In this document: one piece after another, positions 10,187 through 12,197 of the stretch
Layout: every line of letters begins with the position of its first letter
Position numbering within the stretch: the first letter of the stretch is position 1
Origin: Naegleria lovaniensis
Taxonomy: Eukaryota > Heterolobosea > Eutetramitea > Acrasida > Naegleriidae
NCBI RefSeq assembly: GCF_003324165.1
Contig: NW_025407861.1
Span: forward strand, 124,001-188,000
Reading direction: 5' to 3'
DNA: 64,000 nt
Notes under the pieces: model-generated
What the model was told of the DNA's origin: nothing
Database searches by the model: none
The model's input: only the letters and a program-made list of their open reading frames with translations
Position numbers and translations under genes: made by a program

Positions 10187-11747
10187 CTAAACATTTGTAA
10201 ACAGAAGTCTCTTGATTTGATTCAATCTATGGACGAGAATTCTGTCATCCTTATAAACGTATAGACGGTTCATGTCATTGACCTTGCTTTTAACAAGGAA
10301 GGTTGTTCGCTTTGTTTTCTCCTTTGCAGTACTTTCCTTTACAACTTCGTTCTCTGCTCTACAAGCTTTCTGTTTCAAAATTGTCTGTTCTTCGCTTTGC
10401 ACTCGCTTCTTGAAATCTTCTTGCGAAACATTCACAATATTGTCAATTACGTAGTTTGTCATAGCGCTCAAACTCAAACCAAATTTTTCTGGTTCCATCC
10501 ATTCATAGTATTCATTGTCTTTCTTAAACCATGTATTTTGATGTTTTGAGTATTTTCTTGTCGCCTGTTTAAACTCTGACAAGAATTGTAAAAAGCAATA
10601 TTTGAGGGATGAATCAAAGCTGGACCCCTTTTTCAAAGTCTTGACTTTGTTAATAAAATCAATGGTTTGTCTGTAACCTATTGCTCTATAGGGAACAGTA
10701 TGATCCAATAATATACCTTGCTGTAATAGCCCATACACTTCTTCTATTAACCCAAGCTCCACAAGCTCTTCGCATCTTTTTTCTAACCTGGGATATAGTT
10801 TGTATCTGTCTAGATACAAAATGGCTCCTCTAATATCTAAATTATTTTCAATAGATTTACAATTCAATTCACCGTACTTGTATTGCTTCATTGTCTTTCC
10901 TGTAGTGGTCACAATATGATATGCTCTATTTAATCTATACAAATCGTTTCTGTGAATTTTTGAGGCATATTCAGGATCCAACTCTTGAAGAATTTTATAT
11001 CTTCTGTCCCATTCAGTAGATGAAATTTTGGACGAATCATCACGTGATAATAGAGATATAGTTTGTGGTTGTGAGTGTTCTGGTACAACTCCATTAATGA
11101 AAGCGTCAATATAATAGGCAGAACCTCCTACGAGAATTGGTATCCTATTTCGGGAAAGAATTTCAGAGCATAAATTATGAGCATCTTTGTAAAAATGGTG
11201 CACTGTGTATTGATGTTGAACATCATGAGCACATTGTTTTAACGAAACATTATCTATCAGGTGATGAGGAATGTTTTGCATTTCATCCTTAGAAATTTTG
11301 TTACTACCAATTGTACATTCATGATACATTTGCACAGAATCAACATTGATTATTTCTCCATTCAGTCGTTTTGCTAATTCTATGGACAATCTTTTAGTAC
11401 AATTTCAATTGTTAATAATTTTTAAAATTAATGAAATTGTGGATATTAAATAAATTGCTTTACAAATTAGTAATTGACGTACCCAGTCTTTGAATGGGTT
11501 ATTAATCGAACGAATAATTAAAAAGTGAACATACCTTTCCAGTTCCTGTTGCACCAGAAATTAAGAGAACCATGTTGGAGCCAAAACGATGGGTTGCTTC
11601 GGAATTGTTGGATGTGCTCCAATGAAAATTCGTCCTGCTTCTCCGAATATTGGCTGTTTCAATTGAAAGAGTTGAGGCACTAAATTTAATGTGTTGGAGT
11701 GCCAGGCATTTTGTTGTTTGAAGTTTTTGACTTCTCCGCATGAACAT
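10187..11747 (-). CDS. TRIT1: tRNA dimethylallyltransferase
   Basis: Transfers the dimethylallyl group from DMAPP to A37 of tRNAs reading UNN codons (MiaA/Mod5/TRIT1 family). I read three exons on the minus strand: 11747-11535, a 5-nt microexon 11487-11483, and 11390-10187, giving 473 residues. Exon 1 has a basic Ser/Thr-rich leader (mitochondrial-type) and then LLISGATGTGK. The microexon ACTGG plus the first base of exon 3 supplies T-G, restoring the P-loop GATGTGK-TG-LSIELAKRL. Downstream are the family motifs INVDSVQMY, NKISKDEM...HHLID, ILVGGSAYYIDA and VPYRAIGYRQ. A shorter start at the Met just before VLLISGATG is possible. The introns are 47 and 92 nt. Confidence 0.85.
11483..11487 (-). 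other. TRIT1: 5-nt microexon of TRIT1
   Basis: On the minus strand the sequence reads CAAAG|ACTGG|GTACGT, that is, a 5-nt exon flanked by an AG acceptor and a strong GTACGT donor. Without it, exon 1 (ending in AAG, phase 0) and exon 3 (starting one base before the TTG TCC ATA frame) do not join in frame. With it, codons ACT GGA are made across two junctions and the P-loop is completed. Confidence 0.75.
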
Positions 11748-11909
11748 TTTTTTGTCTTGTCTTTCGCTTTCATTGTAAACTTTATAGCTGGTTGACTAAA
11801 AAAATCATGAAAAATTTGTTGAAAAAAATACGCCAAAATCACACATTGTAAGTCTCATATTCATCTTTTTTCGTATCTCACAACAAATTCCATCAACAAC
11901 AGATAAGCA

Positions 11910-12197
11910 ATGTCAGTGGGTAAAGGTACACAAAGCTTCGGTTTGAGACACACCAAGACACACGGATTGTGTCCTCGTTGTGGTAGAAGATCTTTCCACA
12001 TCCAAAAGAAGACCTGTGGATCTTGTGCTTATCCATCTCCAAAGATGAGAAAGTACCAATGGGCATACAAGGCCATCAGAAGAAACACAACTGGAACTGG
12101 CAGATGCCGTTATTTGAAGGTCGTCAAGAGAAAGGAAAAGAACGGATGGAAGGAAGGATCCACACCAAAGGCAGCCACAAACACCAAACAAAACTAA
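11910..12197 (+). CDS. RPL37: 60S ribosomal protein eL37
   Basis: Single exon, 95 residues. It is a zinc-binding protein of the large cytosolic ribosomal subunit. Visible landmarks are [13 protein letters not shown], a C-x2-C/C-x2-C zinc site (CPRC and CGSC, 14 residues apart), the block [20 protein letters not shown], and a basic C terminus EGSTPKAA. Length matches the family. It is divergent from the TRIT1 gene, with about 160 nt between the two starts. Confidence 0.95.

Follow-up and report, generated by a model that had tools for sequence, protein, structure and literature searches.

A probable five-nucleotide microexon in the P-loop of a tRNA dimethylallyltransferase gene of Naegleria lovaniensis

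How is the P-loop of a putative tRNA dimethylallyltransferase encoded when the two parts of the gene that carry its flanking peptides do not join in frame? This question is raised by a minus-strand gene in the window analysed here, a 64,000-nt stretch of the Naegleria lovaniensis genome (positions 124001-188000 of its contig; the genome comprises 30.69 Mb in 97 contigs). The 3' end of exon 1 reads GGA ACT GGA AAG at 11535, ends in phase 0 with the peptide GATGTGK and adjoins GTATGT; from 11390, exon 3 reads A/TTG TCC ATA GAA, preceded by AAAAG. Exon 3 thus begins one base ahead of the LSIELA frame, so that direct joining of exon 1 to exon 3 shifts the frame. The initial annotation had described this phase-0 end and the failure of direct joining, and had proposed that a CAAAG/ACTGG/GTACGT cassette within the range 11391-11534 supplies an exon of 5 nt. 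All of these elements were found as described: the range matches exactly the 144-nt composite (47 + 5 + 92) that separates exons 1 and 3, and the cassette is present at 11487-11483, with a GTACGT donor that scores 7.02 bits on a rough splice-site profile. The ACTGG exon is flanked by two canonical GT-AG introns, and its inclusion restores both the frame and the conserved motif. The gene is composed as follows.

10187-11747, minus strand: gene span, Naegleria lovaniensis; IPP transferase family PF01715
11535..11747, minus strand: exon 1, coding part; ATG at 11747-11745; phase-0 end at GATGTGK; translation corresponds to residues 1-71 of P0001
11488..11534, minus strand: intron 1, 47 nt; GTATGT...CAAAG; top donor of the composite, 8.68 bits (rough profile)
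11483..11487, minus strand: probable microexon ACTGG, 5 nt; encodes the P-loop Thr and the two leading bases of a Gly codon
11391..11482, minus strand: intron 2, 92 nt; GTACGT...AAAAG; second-best donor of the composite, 7.02 bits (rough profile)
10187..11390, minus strand: exon 3; remainder of the tRNA dimethylallyltransferase and stop codon; open frame; Pfam IPPT 202.3 bits on P0001

Both introns are AT-rich, with GC contents of 27.7% and 18.5% versus 41.3% and 34.2% in the exons. Taken together with the evidence below, the 5-nt exon appears to be a real, probably constitutive microexon.

Mod5 and TRIT1 are the names of eukaryotic tRNA dimethylallyltransferases, and the assignment of this gene to the MiaA/TRIT1 type is well supported by profile comparisons. 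The spliced product with the microexon reaches 228.3 bits against TIGR00174 (miaA; curated cut-off 148.65), and the PF01715 (IPPT) score of 202.3 bits compares with a cut-off of 23.6. Among the forms scored against TIGR00174, all cut at the C-terminus, the microexon product is the best, in agreement with the enzyme identity given by the initial annotation; two single-intron alternatives score 221.1 and 215.7 bits, and the exon 3 frame alone 208.0. All four forms exceed the cut-off, so the evidence for the microexon lies in the score gap of at least 7 bits and not in the family call. At the start of the domain, the pattern GxTxxGK[ST] is present as GATGTGKT exclusively when the microexon is included.

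The spacing of this motif is shared widely. Alignment with the solved chains 2qgn and 3eph is gap-free through the P-loop, and the same spacing is found, ungapped, in the N. gruberi orthologue GATGTGKTPISIEIA (GKTPISIE) and in Willaertia magna GATGTGKSKVGIELA (GKSKVGIE), as well as in the metagenome relative P0004 (GKTNLSVE). Among the best 120 of 851 homologues, the query's own record included, 118 contain [GA]x[TS]xxGK, followed by T in 101 and by S in 17. The gene resembles the known tRNA dimethylallyltransferases (TIGR00174, PF01715; 2qgn, 3eph) in its full domain and P-loop spacing and differs from them in that two introns, separated by 5 nt, interrupt its P-loop codons. The two listed homologues in which the motif is missing are P0002, from N. 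fowleri, and P0028; the latter (293 aa, from a 25-kb contig) begins after the P-loop, owing to a wrong start, a missing exon or a real loss.

The ACTGG structure was compared with other ways of splicing the composite. Single introns were enumerated with GT or GC paired with AG, or AT paired with AC, within 60 nt either side of the composite and at lengths of at least 30 nt; two-intron structures were limited to GT-AG introns of at least 25 nt enclosing an exon of no more than 60 nt. These rules yielded 18 structures, 11 with a single intron and 7 with two, that join both flanking peptides in frame, and one of the 18, that with the ACTGG microexon, gives GATGTGK-T-G-LSIELA. This completion of the P-loop, as originally proposed, is thus the sole solution in the enumerated set; it is identical to the deposited protein, and homologues share its spacing. 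The other single-intron (GT-AG, GC-AG, AT-AC) and two-intron (GT-AG) structures were ruled out by motif and spacing.

A single intron with unusual boundaries, which would dispense with the microexon, deserves separate mention in that all 11 such structures keep the flanks in frame, for example a GT-AG intron from 11511 after which the exon resumes at 11390 (GATGTGKVCSLFNYSLSIELA) or an AT-AC intron from 11532 with resumption at 11396 (GATGTGKVKRLSIELA). Each of the 11, however, loses either the P-loop itself or the Ser/Thr that follows its Lys, and none produces the KTGL of the deposited protein; the two forms scored against TIGR00174 fall below the microexon product (221.1 and 215.7 versus 228.3 bits), and the donor at 11511 attains 0.81 bits on the rough profile. 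We regard such an intron as extremely unlikely.

The splice sites themselves were scored with a profile built from 70 introns called de novo, without protein or RNA evidence, a noisy set whose scores serve as a rough guide. On this scale, good scores among the seven GT sites of the composite occur only at 11534 (8.68 bits) and 11482 (7.02), the next site reaching 2.34, and these two are the donors of the microexon model. The three AG sites score 4.48, 3.83 and 4.23; the two acceptors used, at 4.48 and 4.23, lie a little under the median of the profile set, 4.74. Both donors match GTANGT, the most frequent pattern among the de novo called introns; in this noisy set, GTAAGT, GTAGGT and GTATGT together make up 21 of the 70 donors, and GTACGT is absent. 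The reported median intron length of N. lovaniensis is 80 bp, 47% of its genes containing one or more introns (PMC6125883), and read mapping in N. fowleri has used a minimum intron size of 30 bp (PMC8296547); sizes of 47 and 92 nt plausibly fit the genus.

How often such a cassette arises by chance was estimated by dinucleotide shuffling of the interior of the composite (20,000 replicates), the constraint having been chosen after the case had been seen. Any AG-5 nt-GT arrangement appeared in 3.96% of shuffles, falling to 0.025% when a GT[AG]NGT donor was required and to 0.335% when the exon had to consist of a Ser/Thr codon plus 2 nt; the Ser/Thr codon and the GT[AG]NGT donor were found together in 0.005%, that is, in one shuffle. 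Although post hoc, the 5-nt length and the Ser/Thr constraint are fixed by the spacing of the family. These figures bear on the notion that the locus is a decayed gene copy or an assembly error, with the exon a coincidence. The frame is indeed broken without the microexon; yet exon 3 is open across the entire family domain, the orthologues are conserved (86% identity in N. fowleri, 58% in N. gruberi), and a cassette of this kind rarely arises by chance (0.005% of shuffles, under a post hoc constraint), which together leave this explanation with next to no probability.

A blind scan for exons of 1-15 nt was conducted over 247,852 bases (the window and the additional loci L002 and L003-L020). 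It returned 493 AG-exon-GT[AG]NGT cassettes and 63 structures with two coding flanks, of which 8, at three loci, had no simpler reading; the ACTGG structure is the only one of these 8 with two GTANGT donors. The tiny-exon readings at the other two loci, L007 (1483, plus strand; 6 structures) and L010 (1865, plus strand; 1 structure), each involve at least one GTG donor and are probably noise.

On this evidence we consider it very probable that the P-loop codons are split by two spliceosomal introns that are removed constitutively, the 5-nt ACTGG being joined in. In the mechanism that we propose, two ordinary GT-AG spliceosomal introns, merely 5 nt apart, would divide the P-loop codons; each short intron would be recognised across itself, by intron definition, and both would be removed constitutively, so that ACTGG, joined between the exons, would provide the Thr of the P-loop as well as part of the following Gly. 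We infer the use of these junctions in cells, their constitutive splicing and the recognition by intron definition; special recognition of tiny exons by the spliceosome, invoked in the initial annotation, would be a general expectation.

The initial annotation had further suggested that, because skipping would disable the enzyme, the exon could be a regulated switch. In a broader version of this idea, skipping or intron retention under some conditions would shut the enzyme down by truncation or decay of the mRNA. The predicted consequences of losing inclusion are as follows: the skip product GATGTGKIVHRISKTTEWRNNQC would meet a stop after 87 codons, as anticipated in the claim that skipping disables the enzyme, and retention would lead to a stop after 81 codons for intron 1, whether or not intron 2 is retained as well, and after 77 for intron 2, so that loss of inclusion would act as an off-switch. 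A small predicted hairpin also encloses the microexon and its acceptor.

11481-11499, minus strand: 7-bp hairpin that takes in the microexon together with its acceptor; -6.5 kcal/mol; z -1.53; equalled or exceeded in stability by 14 of 200 shuffles

The loss of any frame-shifting exon, however, has the same outcome, so truncation is no evidence of regulation. When RNA folding was examined as the sole regulatory signal, with 200 shuffles each for the composite and the local hairpin, neither fold was significant: the hairpin, with the values given above, is weak evidence at most, and for the entire composite (z -0.77) 44 of 200 shuffles folded at least as well. Moreover, the activity could also be provided by L002, a paralogous isopentenyltransferase, so loss of the microexon need not abolish all tRNA isopentenylation. 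The switch, as originally argued, depended solely on the effect of skipping and finds no support in this analysis; we judge a real but regulated exon to be very unlikely. A fuller form of the idea, in which Naegleria would control one of its two tRNA isopentenyltransferases by exon inclusion, with the hairpin holding exon and acceptor, is highly improbable in our estimation; if true, such control might accompany changes of temperature, for instance, or the transitions among amoeba, flagellate and cyst.

The constitutive microexon appears already to be embodied in a deposited model. The spliced product is identical over 473 of 473 aa to N. lovaniensis C9374_009896 (P0001), and because no other enumerated structure gives its letters, that model very probably includes the 5-nt exon, which is not new to databases. 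N. lovaniensis genes are described as having been predicted by BRAKER1 with RNA-seq (PMC6125883), and at the microexon the model on deposit may stem from ab initio prediction.

The deposited N. fowleri orthologue differs. P0002 (FDP41_006489), a protein of 414 aa with 86% identity across 85% of the query, begins MIFFSICSQRLSIELAKRL and contains neither the exon 1 part nor the P-loop, its start lying a short way ahead of where exon 3 begins. The R that precedes LSIEL in this protein corresponds to AG/A at the intron-exon boundary, so its leading residues are probably translated intron 2. The missing P-loop is probably an annotation error in which the same 5-nt exon was overlooked. The kin species were compared as proteins only: the spacing is shared by N. 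gruberi, and in N. fowleri the model starts near the exon 3 boundary. Herein lies a practical danger, in that a missed exon of 5 nt has apparently deprived a close relative's deposited orthologue of its P-loop on paper.

Tiny exons are already a published phenomenon, and the N. lovaniensis exon follows their logic. In plants, 2,398 microexons of 1-15 nt have been reported from 10 species and described as frequently missed by annotation, and a 5-nt exon of rice was verified by RT-PCR sequencing (PMC8831610). The exon described here resembles these, as they are presented in that study, in its size, canonical flanking introns and tendency to go unannotated; it belongs to another lineage, and it was recognised from sequence, unlike the plant microexons, which come from RNA-seq (PMC8831610). 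A 1-nt exon is reported to complete the PKG motif of Fusarium CYP621A (PMC12940212) and, like the exon in N. lovaniensis, was deduced from unjoinable phases inside a conserved motif; in contrast to our 5 nt in one protist gene, the Fusarium case concerns 1 nt of a fungal P450, with SRA reads and 20-24 genes (PMC12940212). Literature searches of partial coverage, which are no proof of absence, listed no title on a microexon in Naegleria or in the tRNA dimethylallyltransferase family. In a protist whose genes contain few introns, the locus offers a clean test case of how tiny exons are spliced.

The paralogue L002, a second isopentenyltransferase encoded on the minus strand, carries a single intron of 84 nt, likewise within the P-loop, after GGAAAGTCAG, and under our own splicing model its junction reads GKS-G/CC-LALHLA. 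This intron lies four bases past the Lys codon, versus five for intron 2 of the window gene. An old common intron that slid by one base, followed by the later arrival of intron 1, would explain the tiny exon, but the sequences of the introns bear no clear resemblance to each other; independent gain of the L002 intron and intron 2 may be the alternative origin. Two possible sources of the introns, tandem duplication of local sequence and the intron of the paralogue, were also considered and rejected, the alignment scores not going beyond 500 simple shuffles. The fraction of shuffles at least as good was 0.83 for intron 1 with intron 2, 0.33 for intron 1 with the exon 1 end, 0.65 for the microexon region with the exon 1 junction, 0.99 for intron 2 with exon 3, 0.076 for intron 2 with the paralogue intron and 0.53 for intron 1 with the paralogue intron. 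By eye, the C-terminus of L002 resembles a C2H2-like zinc finger; a Pfam search reported no zinc finger there.

Several minor observations concern the 5' region of the gene and its surroundings. Over the window, neither a tRNA scan nor a search of Rfam at its gathering thresholds gave a match. The 58 residues before MVLLISG (MFMRRSQKLQTTKCLALQHIKFSAS..., 11574-11747, minus strand) resemble, by eye, a mitochondrial targeting sequence and are absent from the N. gruberi and Willaertia models; an amino-terminal mitochondrial targeting sequence has been reported for human TRIT1 (PMC7200024). We speculate that the second ATG might be used for a cytosolic form. From an upstream ATG, a second, uORF-like frame of 70 codons (MKAKDKTKKCSC..., 11561-11773, minus strand) overlaps exon 1 and stops 10 bases beyond the second in-frame ATG (11573-11571). 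Across a short intergenic region, a divergent neighbour at 11910-12197 on the plus strand resembles, by eye, ribosomal protein eL37.
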